Below, piece after piece: positions 2,408 to 21,722 of a stretch of 21,722 bases of DNA (positions are counted from its first letter, which is position 1; each line of letters opens with the position of its first letter). The position numbers were made by a program, and so were the translations under genes. This stretch comes from a virus, in the IMG/VR virus record IMGVR_UViG_3300021185_000097, positions 1 through 21,722 of that record, one strand, 5' to 3'. The notes below the pieces were generated by a model. The model was not told the DNA's origin, searched no databases, and was given only the letters and a program-made list of their open reading frames with translations.

Positions 2408-5016
2408 TAGTTATACTCCACGAAGGCCGTTAACTCGTCAATGCTTGGCGAAATGTTTTCCGCTTCCGAGACTAATACTACACGAAAACGGAACGCTCTG
2501 CCACTAAAGTCGCCCGACTTAAACAGCTTATAGTCAGACCAGATGGGAGAACCAGAAGGGTCGTCATTGGTTGTCGAAATATAGAACAAAACATTTTGGT
2601 CTGCAAACTGCGGGTCAGACCAGCTATCCCATAGGCCAGACCAAGTGTCCCAGTTGCCAGACACATCATCCCATAACCCTGCACCCGAATTAAATCGGGT
2701 TACAGAAGCATCAATTCTCGACCTAACGCGGCGCACTGAGCCTGTGTCAATGTAGTTGCTAAAGTCGTAAACACCTGTGGCGGGATTGGCCTCTGACGCG
2801 CCTGTAGTGCTGACCAAGCGCAAAGTGTTTGACGTTACGGCCAAGTTTGTCTTTGTGCCAGAGAACGTGGTGTGTTCAGCCTGTGTGCTTGTGTTGGAGA
2901 AGTCTTCTAGGTCGCCAGACGGGACAACAACACTGGTGTATGCCGTGCTGTTGTTGCCCAGCTTATCATACGCACGAATTGTGTATGTGCCAGAGCGAGC
3001 GGGAACGGTAACACTGTTGGCGGGTCTGGCCACCTTATCTACAGCAGTTGTTGCATTAGCCCAACTCGCCCCACTTTCTTCTGTGGCGTGTCTAATGCGG
3101 TAGAAGCTCAAATCCAAGTCGGTCACTGCTTGCCACTCAAGGTTAAGCAATGCACCGCCGACTGTGGCGTTGAAGTTGGTGACGTTCTGAGGCGGGTCTG
3201 CAAAGGCGTTTACTGAATAGCTAATTACATATTCGTATTCGCCACGAATGCCAAACGTGTTCACAGACCGCGCTCTGATGTCATATTCCACATTCTCAAC
3301 GTCGATAATCTCAAACAAGCCCAACTCGCCTACACCGACTTGAGTGTATTCAGTATCGGTGGACTTCTTGTATTCCACCTCAACGAAGTCGATACGCTCT
3401 GGTGAGCCAGATGTCACAGTCACTCCAAGAACCGTAAACACAGCCTCATTGATGACACGAGCCTCAGTCGAGACGTTTACGCCGACAGGAGGTGAAACAA
3501 ACGCATCTGCCAAAGACGTGTTGTTCGTCTCAAAGGCTGTCTCGTCAGCGTCCCAATCGTAAACGGCTTGGCTGATTTCACCCAGAGACAGGTTAATCTC
3601 CAGCATGGTGTCTCCTGTTGGAGAGAACTGCCAAGCTAACACCTCGAAGGTCTTCTCTGTCCAACCAGCCCTTGTGTTGGTCAGCTTGACGACATCTCCG
3701 ACCTGAACCTGCATCGCACGAAGACCCATTGTTGCATTGACCACGACCTGCTCTCGGTTACGATACAGTAGGACTTTAGCAATGCGCTGTGCCATTGTGC
3801 TGGTTGATGTGAAAAGCAGGTCTAGGCTGGTCTTGACTTCCTCACCGTTGTCAACGTCTGCGATTGTGTTGCTGCTCAATCTGACCTCTGGGTAGTCTGT
3901 CTGCATCCAGTTGGTCTCTGCGCCACTGAACTTACCATTCACAATGTTAAAGTTTTCTTGTCGGCTGCGGCGCGTTTGAATTTGCACATTGCCGCGTAGG
4001 TCATCTTCATCAAACGTATAGACTGGCGTGGTGTATGCGCCAGCCTTGCAGCGAAACTTACCTTGGGCATACCAAATAGAGCCAGCCATCGATTTGGTTA
4101 AGCTCTCAATAACTTTATCAGGCTGTGTGCCTGTCGTGAACGAACCATTGACCTCATAACGGTTCTCTGTCCCGCCCACAGCCAAGGCCACATCTTCACC
4201 GCACACATTGGCCGATGCGATAAAAGATGTGTCGCCTATCTCGTCAGCGTCAGCGTTAATGCCGTAATCGGATGTCAAATAATCACGCAGACATAAAGCT
4301 GCGTTGGCCGTCCAAGCTGTCGATTGTGTGTTTGGGTTGTATATCTTTTTCCCCTTCACAACAGCAGAGATTTGCGGCTCGCCCTGTGGGAATGTTTCTT
4401 GGTTGAACTCAAGTCGAACGTAAAGATATGCGATACCTTGTAGTCTGTGGTCATTAGTCCAACGGCCAGATGCAAGCACTAAGTCGTTGGGTGCGATTTG
4501 GTCATCCGCGCCAAGAAACGCAGCACAGTAAACCTTGCCATCATATTTATCTGGCGAGGTTGATACTTGCAGTGCAGTGGTTAGCCCTGAAGCGAACGTC
4601 AACGGCTCGTCGTTAAGGTAAACTTCCTCAACACTCTCAATTTCATGACCAGCCAAGGCCACCAATATATGCAGGAACTTGTCGCCGCCCGTAGTCTCTT
4701 TGTAGATAATCGCACCGCCGACCTTGGTTTCGCCGTAGATGACAGCGTGGTCTGCTGCTGGCGACAACCCAGCTACGTCATAACCAGTCAGATTGTTGCC
4801 AGAGTTCACATCCTTGACATCAGGCGAGAGCAGCTTGGCTGCGGTTGACAGTGCAAATGTTACGGCGAAGTGTGTCCAGAAGCTCGTTCCAATCAACGCG
4901 GCAGCCCCGCCAATGGCTGCGGTTGTTGCTGTTGACAAAAGAGCAACAGCCGCACTAACAGGGTCAGCCGAAGCCACCGTGGGAATTAGCATCATAGGAA
5001 TTAGTAAACGCCACAT
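2407..5016 (-). CDS. Central tail-tip / host-specificity protein (gpJ-like)
   Basis: The chosen start, ATG at 5016, lies 2 nt after the stop of the peptidase gene and gives 869 aa; a longer in-frame start at 5112 (901 aa) would run deep into that gene. The N-terminus is hydrophobic (MWRLLIPMMLIPTVASADP), then an Ala-rich stretch, then a long beta-rich tip domain of the phage-tail type (about 100-480; KVGGAIIYKE, EDDLRGNVQIQTRRSRQENFN). Two fibronectin-III-like segments follow (about 510-605 and 608-700). A short Trp/Asp repeat (GLWDDVSGNWDTWSGLWDSW) sits at about 780-799. Size and place between the NlpC/P60-like gene and the fibres match lambda gpJ, the tip hub that contacts the receptor and closes the tube. 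Host range probably depends on this protein and the next two. The TAATG at its end couples the first fibre gene. Confidence 0.85.
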   Translation of the reverse strand: MWRLLIPMMLIPTVASADPVSAAVALLSTATTAAIGGAAALIGTSFWTHFAVTFALSTAAKLLSPDVKDVNSGNNLTGYDVAGLSPAADHAVIYGETKVGGAIIYKETTGGDKFLHILVALAGHEIESVEEVYLNDEPLTFASGLTTALQVSTSPDKYDGKVYCAAFLGADDQIAPNDLVLASGRWTNDHRLQGIAYLYVRLEFNQETFPQGEPQISAVVKGKKIYNPNTQSTAWTANAALCLRDYLTSDYGINADADEIGDTSFIASANVCGEDVALAVGGTENRYEVNGSFTTGTQPDKVIESLTKSMAGSIWYAQGKFRCKAGAYTTPVYTFDEDDLRGNVQIQTRRSRQENFNIVNGKFSGAETNWMQTDYPEVRLSSNTIADVDNGEEVKTSLDLLFTSTSTMAQRIAKVLLYRNREQVVVNATMGLRAMQVQVGDVVKLTNTRAGWTEKTFEVLAWQFSPTGDTMLEINLSLGEISQAVYDWDADETAFETNNTSLADAFVSPPVGVNVSTEARVINEAVFTVLGVTVTSGSPERIDFVEVEYKKSTDTEYTQVGVGELGLFEIIDVENVEYDIRARSVNTFGIRGEYEYVISYSVNAFADPPQNVTNFNATVGGALLNLEWQAVTDLDLSFYRIRHATEESGASWANATTAVDKVARPANSVTVPARSGTYTIRAYDKLGNNSTAYTSVVVPSGDLEDFSNTSTQAEHTTFSGTKTNLAVTSNTLRLVSTTGASEANPATGVYDFSNYIDTGSVRRVRSRIDASVTRFNSGAGLWDDVSGNWDTWSGLWDSWSDPQFADQNVLFYISTTNDDPSGSPIWSDYKLFKSGDFSGRAFRFRVVLVSEAENISPSIDELTAFVEYN

Positions 5017-14830: not shown

Positions 14831-16695
14831 TAACGCCATCCGTTCACAAATCCACCGTCTCTGCGAGGCATTTTTCGCCTCGTTTTTTCGACAGCTTTGG
14901 TTTCGTTTTGGTCGCTTGACTTACCAGCCATAGACCTCTGTGCAATTATATTAACATTGACGCCGACTATTGACAATGCCGCTAAAGCGTAAACTCTACA
15001 GTCTAACGCTTCGTTGCGTGGGCGTATTTTCACCCACTCTCTGCGGTGAAAACCTCTGTGGTATTTCTTGACAACCTTCTCGGCTGTCAACATCTTGAAA
15101 TATTCTTCGGTGTAGCTGCTTGGAAAATGACAATACCCAGCCCCTACTTCCTTTATCTTCAGGTGAGAGTAGACCATCTCCTTGGCTGTATCCACACCAA
15201 TCGGAAACAGCTTGCACTTGATATGATTGTTGGTGCTTGGCTTGCCGACAATCGGCTTGCCCTCACCGCCGACACCTTTGATTGCAAACACCCGACGAGA
15301 CAGACGTGGCTTGCAGTATTTGTAAACAGCTTGCGTATGGTGGCCACCTGTATCGATGGCCGTTGCTTTGATTTGCAACTCTCTGCCGTCTTCCGTTTTG
15401 TATGTTAGCGCGAGAAAGCCGTCCAAGTCTGCCCACACCTGAGCAGAAGCAGGGTCTCCATAGATAGCACGAAATTCGATACTAAAAGTGGCGGAATCAC
15501 GCCCGTGTCCCAAAGTCTCCATTTCGAGCCTATCATCTTGCACATCAATACCTGCTGTGACGAACACGACATCCTTGGGGAGACTGTCTGGCGTGTAGTC
15601 TTCGCGGTTGTTTGCCACCTGATATTCGTCAACACCTTCGCCAGAATTGTCCTCCCAGCTTTCGCCGAGATAGGTATTTACCCAAACACGAAGCGTCTCT
15701 GGCAGCTTCTTCGCTTCGAGGAAGTCAGCCACGGCAGAAGACAGAGGTGTCCACGGACTGCACAAACCAGATAGTCGGAAACCCGCCCTTCCGACAAATG
15801 GCGCGGTGGCTCGCCATTTCCCTTTGCGGATAGCTTTATACCTAGCCGCATCGTCCCAGACCCCGCCACATTCCTCACAGGCATAGTAGGCCGTATCAGG
15901 TTTGCCATCGTCCCAGTGGACATTCGACCACTTCAAAGTCTGGTGGTGGTCGCATTCGGGGCAACTGACATGATACTCACGTTTGTCTGTGTTTTCAAAT
16001 AGGGCTTCAATCTTTGATGAACCTTTAACGGTCGGTGTCGATACCGCGACTTCCTTCCTGTTCCAAAAGGTTGCGCTACGCTTGCGAGCCAGTTCGTATG
16101 GGTCGCCCTCATCACCAGCAGACACAGGCCAACGGTCTAACTCATCCGCAAGGATTACGCGAACAGGTCGGCTGGCCAAAGAGGCGGGGCTGTTTGCGCC
16201 GCACATTGTGATGTGACCGCCGAAGAAACTTTTCTTTAGTGTTGTATTGCCACTGTCGCGAGACTTGGGGTCAGCGACTTTGCCTTGCAGCACAGGACTG
16301 TCTCGCAACATTGGCGCGAGCCTGTCCTTCGAGAATGTCTGCGCCATGTCGAGTGTGGGCTGGATACACAAGATGGGAGACGGGCTTTGATGCACATGGT
16401 AGCCAATCAAGTTGAGTAGCATTTCGGTCTTGCCAACCTGAGCGCACGACATGATGACGACCGCCTCAATCTTGGGGTCGCTAACCGCGTCCAATATCTC
16501 TCTCTGATATTCTGCTCGGCTTGTGCGCCACGCGCCGACCTCAGCCGAACTCTCGGGGGAGAGCTTGCGATATTTATCCGCCCATTCGCTAACAGTCAAT
16601 TTCGGAGGCGGTTTCATAGCCTTGCGAATGGTAGTCTTCAGCCTTAGCTCAAGCGTCTTCTTCTGCTGATTGCGTATTGTGTCCGACCAACTCAT
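14830..16695 (-). CDS. terL: Terminase large subunit (lambda gpA family)
   Basis: This 621-aa packaging motor protein starts MSWSDTIRNQQKKTLELRLK with AGGAGG 6 nt upstream. ATPase: Walker A SCAQVGKT at 83-90, Walker B VRVILADE with D184-E185, coupling motif STP at 219-221. A CxxC-x24-CxxC zinc-ribbon-like insert is visible (C245, C248, C273, C276). Nuclease: acidic residues D384 (TAGIDVQDD), D448 (ATAIDTGGHH) and D565 (ALDCRVYA). This fits PF05876 in full length. It cuts concatemers and translocates DNA into the prohead with the TerS subunit; gpA relatives usually cut at specific cos sites. The gene overlaps TerS by 47 nt. Confidence 0.95.
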   Translation of the reverse strand: MSWSDTIRNQQKKTLELRLKTTIRKAMKPPPKLTVSEWADKYRKLSPESSAEVGAWRTSRAEYQREILDAVSDPKIEAVVIMSCAQVGKTEMLLNLIGYHVHQSPSPILCIQPTLDMAQTFSKDRLAPMLRDSPVLQGKVADPKSRDSGNTTLKKSFFGGHITMCGANSPASLASRPVRVILADELDRWPVSAGDEGDPYELARKRSATFWNRKEVAVSTPTVKGSSKIEALFENTDKREYHVSCPECDHHQTLKWSNVHWDDGKPDTAYYACEECGGVWDDAARYKAIRKGKWRATAPFVGRAGFRLSGLCSPWTPLSSAVADFLEAKKLPETLRVWVNTYLGESWEDNSGEGVDEYQVANNREDYTPDSLPKDVVFVTAGIDVQDDRLEMETLGHGRDSATFSIEFRAIYGDPASAQVWADLDGFLALTYKTEDGRELQIKATAIDTGGHHTQAVYKYCKPRLSRRVFAIKGVGGEGKPIVGKPSTNNHIKCKLFPIGVDTAKEMVYSHLKIKEVGAGYCHFPSSYTEEYFKMLTAEKVVKKYHRGFHRREWVKIRPRNEALDCRVYALAALSIVGVNVNIIAQRSMAGKSSDQNETKAVEKTRRKMPRRDGGFVNGWR

Positions 16696-17122
16696 GCAGT
16701 GCCTCCTCTATCATTTCCTCAATAACGTCTTTAGCCTCTGCCGCATTGGCGCAGTTAATTACTAGCGGAGCCGACTTGCTAGGGATGGCAAGCAGTCGCG
16801 TCTTGACTGCGCTGGCCTGCTCTCCGAATTGCTTGGCCACGTCATCGATGTAAACAAGTTCGCCACGAAGCATAGAGTTTTCCATCTCCTTAGCGTCTGC
16901 TTGTTCCTTCGCAAGCCTTGCTCGTTCTTCGCCAAGGTCTAGTTCGCCTGCGTTAACACGACCAGCCGCAACCTTGCGGAGATGGCGGATGTATTCGGTG
17001 CGAGCCTCGACAACGTCATACTTCCCGCGTTCTTTCTTGGTTATTATCTCTCTAGCTATTAATTCGCCAACCATTTTGGTTGATAAATCTAGCTCTTTTG
17101 CGACTTGAACTAATGACGCCAA
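16649..17122 (-). CDS. terS: Terminase small subunit (Nu1-like), TTG start
   Basis: The open frame extends up to a GTG at 17164, but the TTG at 17122 has AGGAG exactly 6 nt upstream and yields MASLVQVAKELDLSTKMVGE, which fits the short Nu1 N-terminus (a winged helix-turn-helix at residues 1-30). The product is 157 aa. Residues about 60-100 form a charged coiled coil (EERARLAKEQADAKEMENSM), and the later part (VYIDDVAKQFGEQASAVKTR) matches the Nu1-type dimer/TerL-contact region. It recognises the packaging site and loads TerL. A terminator-like element and a G6 run lie just upstream, where lambda has cos. Family confident; start choice well supported. Confidence 0.85.
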   Translation of the reverse strand: MASLVQVAKELDLSTKMVGELIAREIITKKERGKYDVVEARTEYIRHLRKVAAGRVNAGELDLGEERARLAKEQADAKEMENSMLRGELVYIDDVAKQFGEQASAVKTRLLAIPSKSAPLVINCANAAEAKDVIEEMIEEALHELVGHNTQSAEEDA

Positions 17123-17128
17123 TTTAAT

Positions 17129-17133
17129 CTCCT
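17129..17133 (-). promoter_or_regulatory. Shine-Dalgarno AGGAG that selects the TTG start of TerS
   Basis: AGGAG with a 6-nt spacer to TTG 17122; the alternative GTG at 17164 has only a G run directly before it with unsuitable spacing. Confidence 0.7.
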
Positions 17134-17188
17134 GTTGAATTTTTTGAGCATACCTTAAAAACACCCCCCTAGTAAGACACCTCAGTCT

Positions 17189-18607: not shown

Positions 18608-19021
18608 CTACTTCTGCGCGTTATCATCTAGGAACTCTGACGAGGCTTTATGCACGGTCATGCCGACATAGGTGTTAGAAACAATCGCGCCATTGTGGGT
18701 GTGGTCTGACTGGGTCACATATAAGTTACCAACGTCAATCGGCTCGCTTGGTTGCGTGTCATGTTCGGCGACCAGCAGCAAGCCATTCTTCTTGGCCTCT
18801 ATGCACAAGAACAACAGTGCCATCAGTAGACGCCTCTGACCCATCGGGAACGGTGCGCCTGCACACTTCAATTCACCGAACACAAATGTGTCACCGCGCA
18901 CGTCATACGCAAAGTCGATGTCCGTGGGAGTGAAGCCATTCAGCTTCATGTTCGAGAAGTCTTTTAGTTGCGCCATACGCTCAGGATAGAGGATGCCTGT
19001 CTGGCCTAAATCTATAGCCAT
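18608..19021 (-). CDS. Small PD-(D/E)XK-type nuclease-like protein
   Basis: This 137-aa protein (MAIDLGQTGILYPERMAQLK) starts after an AGGA 8 nt upstream, in a TAATG overlap with the 39-codon ORF before it. Residues 30-62 read FTPTDIDFAYDVRGDTFVFG, then ELKCAGAPFPMGQ: an Asp pair (D34, D36), then a beta strand with E50-x-K52, then a Gln (Q62). This is the D...(D/E)xK arrangement of the PD-(D/E)XK nuclease fold as in VRR-NUC or Holliday-junction-resolvase-like phage proteins. The remainder (LLMALLFLCIEAKKNGLLLV) is a hydrophobic helix and core strand that would complete the fold. It may resolve or trim replication intermediates. The family is inferred from motifs alone. Confidence 0.6.
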   Translation of the reverse strand: MAIDLGQTGILYPERMAQLKDFSNMKLNGFTPTDIDFAYDVRGDTFVFGELKCAGAPFPMGQRRLLMALLFLCIEAKKNGLLLVAEHDTQPSEPIDVGNLYVTQSDHTHNGAIVSNTYVGMTVHKASSEFLDDNAQK

Positions 19022-19140
19022 TACTTTTTCCTCACTGTGATTAACACATTATCACACACACACATACTATAGGTATGTGTGATGTGTGTGATAACTTGTG
19101 CGGTCGTGATAAATGTTGTGATAAGTTTGTGATAAACCAT
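19021..19140 (-). CDS. 39-codon ORF through the iteron region (possible leader or by-product)
   Basis: The frame starts at the TAATG overlap with the primase-helicase stop and ends with a TAA that overlaps the ATG of the next gene in the same way. The peptide (MVYHKLITTFITTAQVITHI, then THTYSMCVCDNVLITVRKK) is a low-complexity string of Ile/Thr/Val/His, because it is read through the TTATCACA repeats. It may be a true small gene, a translated leader that couples the next gene, or chance. The double overlap is the only support. Confidence 0.35.
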   Translation of the reverse strand: MVYHKLITTFITTAQVITHITHTYSMCVCDNVLITVRKK

Positions 19141-19270
19141 TACTCAGCACCCCACCGTTCATTGATTAACTCATTGTTATGAATGACAAAAGTGCCATTA
19201 TCACAAGCCCAATCATTTGTGATACGTTTGTGATTTTCAGTGTGATAAGCCTTGCCATGCTGTGTGATAG
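19036..19270. repeat. Cluster of about 12 TGTGATA(A) iterons: candidate replication origin
   Basis: TGTGAT begins at 19036, 19078, 19087, 19117, 19128, 19218, 19229, 19241 and 19263; a CGTGATAA variant is at 19105; the inverse TTATCACA is at 19049 and 19198. Several neighbours are 11 or 12 bp apart (19105/19117/19128 and 19218/19229/19241, then 22 to 19263), one helical turn, as expected for initiator-binding iterons. The array spans the last 130 bp of the primase-helicase gene and the following gap. Phages such as lambda place iterons within or next to the initiator gene. Confidence 0.6.
19049..19094. repeat. 46-bp imperfect palindrome within the iteron cluster
   Basis: TTATCACACACACACATAC (19049-19067), a 5-nt TATAG centre, then GTATGTGTG-ATG-TGTGTGATAA (19073-19094): 19 bp of complementarity with a 3-nt bulge. 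It is a dyad bounded by iterons and could extrude as a cruciform, bind a dimeric initiator, or form an RNA hairpin just before the next gene's start. Confidence 0.75.
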
Positions 19271-21062
19271 ACCTGCGGTTCAATTCCTGCTTAAAATCGG
19301 TCAATTTGATGCCTTGGAACTCGCCATCTTTGGTCGCAAATCCATCATCTAGCATGTCGCGCAGCACCTGCAACGCGAAGTCACGCCACTTGCTACCCTT
19401 GCTCAATGACTTCTGTTTTGGAGCATTTGCCATCACATCCAGCACCAAGCTGGTCTGCTCTTGCCCGAACGCCTCGCGCACGAATGACACCTCGCGAGCC
19501 TCAAGCCACATTGGCTCGGCCTCCTCGACATCCTTCTGCTTAGGGTTCTTGACGCATACCTGTTGCGTCTCAGCTTTACGCTCAAGCGATATTGCAGTAT
19601 CTACTGCGCCCAGCAGTGCGCTACTCCCCCTCAGCCCCTTCTCTATTTGCTTGCCTGAGTGATGAACAGCCAATACCGTGCAATCGAACTGCTCGCGCAG
19701 GATATCGCAGTTCCTGACGAATATACCCATGTCAGTCGCGCTGTTCTCGTCTGCACCACCGAACGAACGCGCCAGTGTATCGACCACGAACAGGCATGGG
19801 TTCTCGTCGCCCAGCATGTCTCGGACAGCCTCAGCGAGCAGCGTTACGTCCATACCGTCCGCCTCTGCCATCGAGATAGGGTTCGTGACCGCATAGAATG
19901 GCACACCATCCATAGATAGCTTGCGGTCTCTGTGCCACGCCTCGGCGCGATTGGTAATGCCTGATTGGCCTTCCATAGCCAGATAGACCACAATGCCCTG
20001 CTGGGTAGGCCGACCATTCCAATCAGCACCATGGGCAATAGACAATGCCCAGTCCAAAACTGCAAAACTTTTATAACTCGCTGGCGCGCCAAAGACCACT
20101 GCGAACGACTTCTCGATAAGATAGTCAGCCACCATAAATGTTGGCGGTGGCGTGTTGCTTAACTCTCCGAGCGTTCGCAGCTTGATTTGTCGCTCGAACT
20201 TTCGCTCAGGAACTTGTTCACTGCCGATATGTAAGCCTGTCGGCGTTGATGGCTGACCTGACTGGTCTGGCGCGATATGAATATCTCCAAGCCTTCCCGC
20301 AAGCCCCTTGGCAATAGTTGAGGCTGCTTTCTTCTTGAACTCGTCAATTCCTCGTCCTTCGGCATTTAAGTCTCCTGTTCTGCTAACTACTTTTCTTTCA
20401 TACTGCGGATAAACATTCTCGACCATCCAATCGACCGTGGGAAATAGACCGAACTGGCGGTAATAATCAGACACCGAAGCCATAACCAAAGAAGCCATGT
20501 AGCTTTCCCTCCCGTCACGGATACGGCCAAAAGCATCAGTATCAGAACCACCCAGATGACCGACAAGAGACCCAGAAGGTGTGCCGCTAGCTTGTGCTGC
20601 AATCTCTGTCGGGAACTCTGCAAAGTCATTGTCGTTCAGCCATTTGTATCCGATGCTTCTAGGGAATATGACGTAACCGCCAGTGCCGCGAATATCGGTC
20701 GCCGCTTGCTTGCCGATACCTGCACGATTACGGATATCCCCCGAATGCTTATAATAATAATGTAATCCACCGCTCTGGGTCTCTGCAACCCGCGTGGCTC
20801 CTAGCATCTCTTTGTTCTCTTCGACCCACTGCATTCCCTGCTTGCCGTCTCGGACATCAACGTCCACGACAGACAGCCCAGACACCTCGCCAGTGGGGAC
20901 ACCAATCAGTGCCGCACCAGAAATGCTGAACAGTCGCTCGACCTCATCTGGGTCTTGTGTAGCTGCCTTAAAGCCGCCTTGGCAGACTGGCCGCTTGTTT
21001 TTGTCGCACGGGAAAACAGGGTATTCCTCTGAAATCTCAAGTGCTGTGCTTAGTAAATCCAT
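19140..21062 (-). CDS. Primase-helicase fusion: prim-pol domain plus RepA-type AAA ATPase
   Basis: This 640-aa protein starts MDLLSTALEISEEYPVFPCD with a GAGGTGA just upstream. Residues about 5-180 are a bifunctional primase-polymerase (prim-pol) domain: catalytic D67/D69 in SVVDVDVR, GGLHYYY with H101, and ATDIRGTGGYVI with D123. Residues about 305-500 are a RepA/DnaB-like ATPase: Walker A GAPASYKS (325-332; the usual Gly before Lys is Tyr, a known phage variant), Walker B CLFVVD with D428, HH at 467-468, and RGSSALLGAVDTAI with a possible Arg finger R478. The C-terminal 70 residues (HGKAYHTENHKRITNDW) may bind DNA. It would prime and unwind at the origin, which probably overlaps its own 3' end. 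No separate polymerase or primase gene is in view. Confidence is high. Confidence 0.88.
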   Translation of the reverse strand: MDLLSTALEISEEYPVFPCDKNKRPVCQGGFKAATQDPDEVERLFSISGAALIGVPTGEVSGLSVVDVDVRDGKQGMQWVEENKEMLGATRVAETQSGGLHYYYKHSGDIRNRAGIGKQAATDIRGTGGYVIFPRSIGYKWLNDNDFAEFPTEIAAQASGTPSGSLVGHLGGSDTDAFGRIRDGRESYMASLVMASVSDYYRQFGLFPTVDWMVENVYPQYERKVVSRTGDLNAEGRGIDEFKKKAASTIAKGLAGRLGDIHIAPDQSGQPSTPTGLHIGSEQVPERKFERQIKLRTLGELSNTPPPTFMVADYLIEKSFAVVFGAPASYKSFAVLDWALSIAHGADWNGRPTQQGIVVYLAMEGQSGITNRAEAWHRDRKLSMDGVPFYAVTNPISMAEADGMDVTLLAEAVRDMLGDENPCLFVVDTLARSFGGADENSATDMGIFVRNCDILREQFDCTVLAVHHSGKQIEKGLRGSSALLGAVDTAISLERKAETQQVCVKNPKQKDVEEAEPMWLEAREVSFVREAFGQEQTSLVLDVMANAPKQKSLSKGSKWRDFALQVLRDMLDDGFATKDGEFQGIKLTDFKQELNRRSITQHGKAYHTENHKRITNDWACDNGTFVIHNNELINERWGAE

Positions 21063-21162: not shown

Positions 21163-21722
21163 CTAGAACTCATCGTCAGACGATGGTTCACTGGCTGCTG
21201 CTGCTGGTGCGGGGGAGGAGGAACCACCGTCACCAGTTTCTGCAATATCGCCAAATTCGCTTGGACGGTCAATCAATTTAACCAGTTCGAAGTTCGGGAT
21301 ATTGGTATTGCCACGACCAATTTTAGTCGGGGTTGCGCCGTTGTATGCCACCACGGCGGCTTTGCCTGCCACATCGCTCGATGCTTCCCACTTGCCGTAT
21401 AGCTCTTGGATTGCCATCGTTGCGCCTACTGAAGTTGTAGACCACTCGCGGACTGACTGTTCTTCGCCGAACATCTCCTTGGACATGATGTTGACTTGGA
21501 AACCACGCTTCCAGTCACGCCCGTCATCGGGTTTGTCTACGCGGACATCCAGACTTGGGTCTAGAACCCACTCGGGAGCCTCGCCCTTCGCGAAGACAGC
21601 GTAACCAGTTCGGATAGACCCGAAGTCGAACGCTGCTTTCGTGAAGGTCACAACGCCATCGGCAGTTTGCCATGATGCTGTGGACGGAGCGTAACGAACA
21701 TATGGTGTGTATCCGCTTTCGC
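21163..21722 (-). CDS. Probable phage ssDNA-binding-like protein, N-terminus cut by the right edge
   Basis: The frame is open to the window edge: upstream of the GTG at 21651 it reads ESGYTPYVRYAPSTASWQTA, then DGVV, so the true start lies outside and at least 185 residues are present. The body (TFTKAAFDFGSIRTGYAVFA; PEWVLDPSLDVRVDKPDDGR; WKRGFQVNIMSKEMFGEE) is beta-rich and OB-fold-compatible, then a Ser/Ala/Pro linker and an acidic SSDDEF end. An acidic disordered tail ending in Phe is typical of single-stranded DNA-binding proteins such as T7 gp2.5 and bacterial SSB, and the primase-helicase is next door. I know similar phage proteins mostly as hypothetical; the SSB role is inferred. Confidence 0.6.
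   Translation of the reverse strand, partial: ESGYTPYVRYAPSTASWQTADGVVTFTKAAFDFGSIRTGYAVFAKGEAPEWVLDPSLDVRVDKPDDGRDWKRGFQVNIMSKEMFGEEQSVREWSTTSVGATMAIQELYGKWEASSDVAGKAAVVAYNGATPTKIGRGNTNIPNFELVKLIDRPSEFGDIAETGDGGSSSPAPAAAASEPSSDDEF

Follow-up and report, generated by a model that had tools for sequence, protein, structure and literature searches.

The window analysed here is a whole IMG/VR virus record of 21,722 bases, classed as linear, whose genes lie mainly on the minus strand. The presumed initiator gene (19140–21062, minus strand) encodes a protein of 640 amino acids (aa), which combines a prim-pol domain, a RepA-type helicase and a C-terminal domain. The Prim-Pol domain (PF09250, E 1e-26) occupies residues 11–152 (20607–21032, minus strand), and the helicase domain, of the AAA_25/RSF1010 RepA-like type (E 4e-35), occupies residues 298–472 (19647–20171, minus strand). 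A profile search with the helicase among solved sequences returned a single match, RSF1010 RepA (1g8y, 3.5e-8), and 1g8y is also the top Foldseek match of the predicted helicase structure. At the C-terminus, AlphaFold arranges the last ~80 residues in the a-b-a-a-b-b order of a winged helix, with moderate confidence (pLDDT about 75). From this topology, residues 558–635 (19158–19391, minus strand) are predicted to form a winged helix, which, given the covariation in relatives, is presumably the reader of the iterons described below. Foldseek gave no significant match for this domain, and Pfam gave none for the C-terminal pieces, with only sub-threshold winged-helix matches for loci L036 and L122.

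A conserved gene of 137 aa (18608–19021, minus strand) comes next and forms the downstream border of the proposed origin. Its product carries a D..GELK motif, is possibly a PD-(D/E)xK nuclease and has relatives in L050–L061; neither Pfam nor PHROG returned a match. Upstream of the initiator gene, the product of the gene at 21163–21720 (minus strand) has an acidic DDEF tail, as found in single-strand binding proteins (SSBs). Its identity as an SSB is unconfirmed, and BLASTP found no similarity to the SSB of Roseobacter phage CRP-406. The TerL and portal proteins of the window match those of CRP-406 at 58% and 71%, respectively, and the gene order is similar to that of the CRP-822-type roseophages. 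CRP-406 is one of this group, whose paper is silent on iterons and on a replication origin (PMC12629253).

At the 3' end of the initiator gene, an array of 11 copies of TGTGAT(A), or (T)ATCACA on the gene strand, extends from 19036 to 19270 (array, clusters and dyad are given without strand). The array takes in ~130 nt at the end of the gene together with the 118-bp gap after it, in line with the original prediction, whose count of about 12 copies has to be lowered to 11. Cluster 1 (19036–19135) lies in the gap, with TGTGAT at 19036, 19051 (reverse), 19078, 19087, 19117 and 19128. Cluster 2 (19199–19270) lies inside the gene, with copies at 19200 (reverse), 19218, 19229, 19241 and 19263. All eight TGTGATA copies of the window fall within 19050–19269, while dinucleotide shuffles give an expectation of 1.86 for the whole window. 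TGTGAT occurs 17 times, 11 times in the array and six times in the other 21.5 kb, and the array is unique in the window. The count of the 8-mer TGTGATAA, which had been proposed as a check, gave six copies in the array and none in the rest of the window. When all 6-mers were tested, ATCACA/TGTGAT reached 11 copies in 235 bp, and the maximum for any 6-mer in 100 shuffles was 5. The predicted helical phasing holds locally, since neighbouring iterons lie 9, 11, 11, 12 and 22 bp apart, which fits one or two helical turns, and the repeat spacing peaks at 9–11 bp; the two clusters do not share a single common phase.

Inverted iterons form the outer arms of a 46-bp near-palindrome, which we find at 19049–19094 as predicted. 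No other short-loop hairpin in the 21.7 kb scores better than its core, CACACATAC-CTATA-GTATGTGTG (19059–19081), and by analogy with RSF1010 it is a candidate ssi-type primase site. Meanwhile, a promoter-like sequence, TTATCA-17-TATAGT, overlaps the dyad on the minus strand (19066–19094), and in L007 the corresponding centre reads TATAAT. No intrinsic terminator was found.

A nucleotide search of annotated phages with the window gave no match, so relatives were sought by protein. Of more than 580 helicase relatives, 80 were kept; a scan of bacterial genomes returned no relative. In the close relatives, an array lies at the same spot or within about 200 bp downstream, and many distant phages also have one at this place; the repeat differs by clade (TTATCACA, ATCCATA, CGTCAAC, GGTACGA, GTACCGA and others). 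The place of the array is conserved among related phages, whereas the repeat sequence itself is not. Among the close relatives, the repeat is ATCACAA in L007, TCACAC in L015, ATCCATA in L008 and L011, CATGAAG in L009 and L012, CGTCAAC in L014, L016, L021 and L022, CGGCTACC in L019, CGTGTACG in L079 and GTCCTTG in L080. In the strong arrays of this group, one 7-mer is present in 4–8 copies, compared with about 2 in shuffles. L009, L010, L012 and L017 did not pass this test, and the arrays of L018 and L024 lie just outside the stretch that it covered.

These unrelated repeats bear on the idea that the locus is a DnaA-dependent origin, in which the repeats are DnaA boxes short of one C. TTATCACA is indeed similar to TTATCCACA, and the original prediction had left room for a diverged DnaA-type site. 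However, the box TTWTNCACA is absent from the array region (the window has just two, which begin at 647 and 18182), and relatives carry CGTCAAC, ATCCATA or GTACCGA at the same place. Because of both observations the DnaA reading is unsupported, and we regard it as highly improbable.

The arrangement extends well beyond the close relatives. More distant prim-pol/helicases (L025–L049) are accompanied by GGTACGA or TGTCCGA repeats. Annotated phages with an array include CRP-406, CRP-811, Alteromonas PB15, Salicola CGphi29, Vibrio 1.076.O, Rhizobium 16-3 and Rhizobium N65, and arrays are also present in the E. coli phages sortsyn and welsh and in Streptococcus Javan46. Sortsyn (L311, array AACGTTA) and welsh (L312, array GCGGGACA) are recorded on E. 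coli K-12 MG1655, and would be convenient laboratory systems. At 72 further helicase loci, the array directly follows the stop codon in most, with the repeats GTACCGA, CATCCGA, GCACCGA, AACCGAA, CGGGACA, TGTCCAA and so on. At eight loci (L248, L256, L267, L278, L281, L289, L292 and L293) a gene is inserted, and the array, 0.7–1.2 kb beyond the helicase stop, still fits the helicase type. Most of the inserted genes read like ones for proteins of the PAPS-reductase or methyltransferase type. We did not see an array after the gene in the RepA-type phages Gordonia Widow, Nocardia KYD2, Mycobacterium Bobby, BFK20, SETP7 and Caulobacter GB2A. In Serratia phage Susuwatari (L315), a very long G/C-rich hairpin with a CTAGAG centre and GTCAGGGAT repeats follows position 3385, a layout that looks related to the iteron arrays but different.

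Two parts of the locus remain constant while the repeats change, namely the hairpin centre (CCCTATA..GGG or similar) and a site of IHF consensus. The CTATA-type centre of the dyad is kept in relatives (CCCCTATA..GGGG), with the variants CTATA, CTTTA and CTTAA. For the exact IHF consensus WATCAANNNNTTR, the array regions (12.4 kb in total) contain 13 sites and the remaining 247 kb contain 17, a 15-fold enrichment. In the window, the IHF-like site TAACAATGAGTTA (19167–19179, minus strand), with one mismatch to the consensus, is located between the two iteron clusters, inside the last codons of the gene. In close relatives, the stretch that encodes the C-terminal motif NNGLVN contains the IHF site, exact or with one mismatch, while the site is non-coding in phages such as Rhizobium 16-3 and Vibrio 1.076.O. 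Since the site is coding in some phages and non-coding in others, it seems to be the DNA itself that is conserved. We also notice that the codons for the predicted recognition helix and wing contain the in-gene iterons and the IHF-like site, which agrees with the earlier suggestion that the repeats constrain the C-terminus of the protein.

The variable centre is also of relevance to the possibility that the array is an operator or promoter of the downstream operon, where a phage repressor or an autoregulating initiator would bind repeats around the -10-like TATAGT. A promoter match of 9/12 at 19094–19066 on the minus strand, and four promoter-like sites where 0.8 are expected, are in line with such a role. 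Across relatives, however, no -35 element is conserved and the centre changes between CTATA, CTTTA and CTTAA; the array is tied to the helicase, while what follows it downstream is not fixed, and the two can be separated by an inserted gene. We consider this explanation unlikely, and transcriptional control could be a second role of the locus instead of an alternative.

Comparison of the proteins shows that the repeat type tracks the winged-helix-like C-terminal domain of the initiator, and not the catalytic domains. The strongest covariation comes from the family L243–L297, which is distant from the window and has no prim-pol match. Among pairs with at least 95% catalytic identity, those with the same repeat average 87% C-terminal identity (minimum 72, n=100) and those with different repeats average 51% (maximum 64, n=69), though the pairs are not independent. 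The mean information on repeat type in this family is 0.33 per C-terminal column and 0.05 per catalytic column. The repeat type changes four times on the C-terminal tree, which is the minimum for five types, compared with eight times on the catalytic tree. Residues of the predicted recognition helix differ with the repeat, with NARRFKE for GTACCGA, KNNRFWE for CATCCGA, DYRRFKE for GCACCGA and KSNRFRE for AACCGAA. In the close group, at 79–88% catalytic identity, residues 555–597 are 64–82% identical when repeats match and 39–50% when they differ. L079 and L080, whose repeats differ, share 97% identity over the catalytic part but 42% over residues 555–597. The catalytic tree places L012 with L008, while the C-terminal tree groups L009 with L012 and L008 with L011, matching the repeats. 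We rejected the TCACA trio (window, L007 and L015) as proof of covariation; its agreement is partly circular because the iterons lie in the compared codons, and ahead of the iterons the C-termini are only 22–33% identical.

At the DNA level, most pairs with different repeats lose homology 256–300 bp before the stop codon and regain it after the array, whereas pairs with the same repeat are homologous without a break through the gene end. The breakpoints of this cassette fall at the start of the C-terminal domain. L025 and L036 are an exception, with homology up to 26 bp before the stop despite differing repeats. The agreement between repeat and C-terminus can arise from linkage of neighbouring DNA alone. 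The gene-insertion loci and the concentration of changes in the recognition helix speak for function.

Phage DNA packaging provides another setting for such an arrangement. In lambda cosB, repeats are read by a winged-helix terminase small subunit, and an IHF site is also present. The combination of repeats, IHF-like site and dyad in the window resembles cosB by analogy, and the array might accordingly be read as a cos or pac site. The terminase genes start about 1.9 kb downstream of the array, with a Nu1-like terS candidate (16649–17164) followed by a gpA-type terL on the same strand. Yet the array stays with the helicase where the terminase is distant (about 8.5 kb in Rhizobium N65 and about 6 kb in Alteromonas PB15), and its repeat type tracks the helicase C-terminal domain. 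A packaging site is therefore very unlikely in our judgement.

Iteron arrays of plasmids can also serve as centromeres. By this analogy, the array could be a plasmid-like partition site, or another non-replication site hitch-hiking with the helicase gene. We give this reading hardly any weight: the scan of window genes recognised none for partition, the repeats covary with a domain of the initiator itself, and a strictly lytic life cycle is described as probable for the CRP-822-type relatives (PMC12629253).

Taken together, 19036–19270 is very probably a phage replication origin, bound by the initiator of the adjacent gene via its C-terminal domain, with IHF-type bending, loading of a RepA-like ring and prim-pol priming. 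The computation shows that the array exists and where it lies, that arrays built from other repeats recur in related phages, that the C-terminus is predicted to form a domain, and that repeat and C-terminus covary. The prediction of an origin with sites for a phage initiator is strengthened by the position, by iterons, dyad and IHF-like site together, by an architecture that is kept across families and by the covariation of repeat and C-terminus. Cumulative GC skew, which had been put forward as a check, was uninformative, as it is nearly monotonic in the fragment and its extremum is not consistently at the array in four complete relatives. The origin reading outranks the packaging-site, operator, DnaA and partition readings, which are weaker rivals. 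We infer that a cis-encoded initiator binding its own downstream iterons is the best explanation of these sequence patterns.

We further infer how binding, bending, helicase loading and priming may give origin activity. The C-terminal winged-helix-like domain of the 640-aa protein would bind the TATCACA iterons of the two clusters, which follow each other at roughly one helical turn. A bending protein, either IHF or one like it, would occupy the site between the clusters and bring them together. The bound initiator may then assemble its RepA-like hexameric helicase ring at the array and open the DNA. Finally, the prim-pol domain would start primers, perhaps at the extruded hairpin with the CTATA loop, like RepB' at the ssi hairpins of RSF1010.

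To our knowledge, the majority of phage origins are unmapped. If our reading is right, a helicase gene that can be recognised in the sequence would also reveal the origin beside it, in phages from the sea, fresh water and soil as well as in those of E. coli and Streptococcus. Nature provides many pairings of a C-terminal domain with a repeat, some of them in near-identical proteins whose repeats differ, and these would allow direct tests of initiator-origin specificity and of how it evolves. Such pairings also suggest why phages might switch specificity, namely for compatibility with co-infecting phages, satellites or decoy origins. A broader proposal, for which we see an even chance, is that these loci represent a class of phage replicons which is very large but has gone unrecognised, with self-recruiting RepA-type initiator-helicases. 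The C-terminal winged helix and the downstream iterons would be exchangeable as a pair, with repeated switches of specificity, and the code between recognition helix and repeat bases would be readable. Origin incompatibility, or decoy origins and satellites, are possible drivers.

As in cis-encoded iteron origins in general, the repeats cluster beside the initiator gene and are rare elsewhere. In SaPI/PICI elements, rep is followed by an ori with iterons, which lies directly 3' of rep and is functional in PICIs (PMC6092414). This rep-ori module also has two iteron sets, which the C-terminal domain of the initiator helicase reads (PMC6092414; Ubeda 2007, as cited in PMC7581432), and the C-terminal domain of Cch2 from SCCmec binds downstream direct repeats (PMC7581432). 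The proposed origin of the window likewise directly follows the initiator gene, with iterons in two sets and a C-terminal domain as presumed reader. One of its iteron clusters overlaps the 3' end of the gene, and an IHF-like site lies between the clusters. The Rep helicases of SaPI/PICI type are of a different kind from the window helicase, which is RSF1010 RepA-like (AAA_25), fused to a prim-pol and phage-borne.

In RSF1010, RepC acts on iterons, RepA unwinds and RepB' acts at ssi hairpins (PMC4234260; PMC4538821). The window shares with this IncQ system a RepA-type hexameric helicase, as judged from sequence and predicted fold only, an archaeo-eukaryotic-type primase, iterons and hairpins. 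However, RSF1010 uses three proteins where the window has one polypeptide, and no separate RepC-like protein was seen among the neighbouring window genes scanned. The helicase-fused C-terminal domain appears to be the iteron reader in RepC's stead. Phage P4 alpha, as summarised in PMC4234260, also joins primase, helicase and a winged-helix origin reader in one polypeptide, like the predicted organisation in the window. Its primase is of the bacterial Toprim type, whereas in the window protein a prim-pol domain is combined with a RepA-type helicase.

The plasmid pRN1 encodes the prim-pol protein ORF904, and a downstream stem-loop is probably its origin (PMC4234260). Common to both are a PF09250 prim-pol, a C-terminal winged helix (predicted in the window) and an origin (proposed in the window) with a stem-loop, directly adjoining the 3' end of the gene. 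pRN1 has an SF3 helicase and a 100-nt stem-loop without iterons; the window lacks the former two, and has iterons and a RepA-like helicase. The locus would work in the manner of SaPI/PICI, RSF1010 and pRN1, but because each has a defining feature found absent here, we place it in none of them. Direct repeats also overlap the initiator gene in the lactococcal TP901-1/Tuc2009 and lambda origins, where they lie inside the gene and a replisome organiser or O protein acts as initiator in place of the helicase itself (PMC8965321; PMC11447400). In Gordonia phages, winged-helix parts are shuffled among replication initiators (PMC10684548). We found no description of such an array for RepA-type phage helicases in the open-access literature, to which the search was confined. 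The general kind of origin is known from SaPI/PICI, P4 and RSF1010; what is new is a RepA-type phage version in a single chain, whose specificity switches fast.
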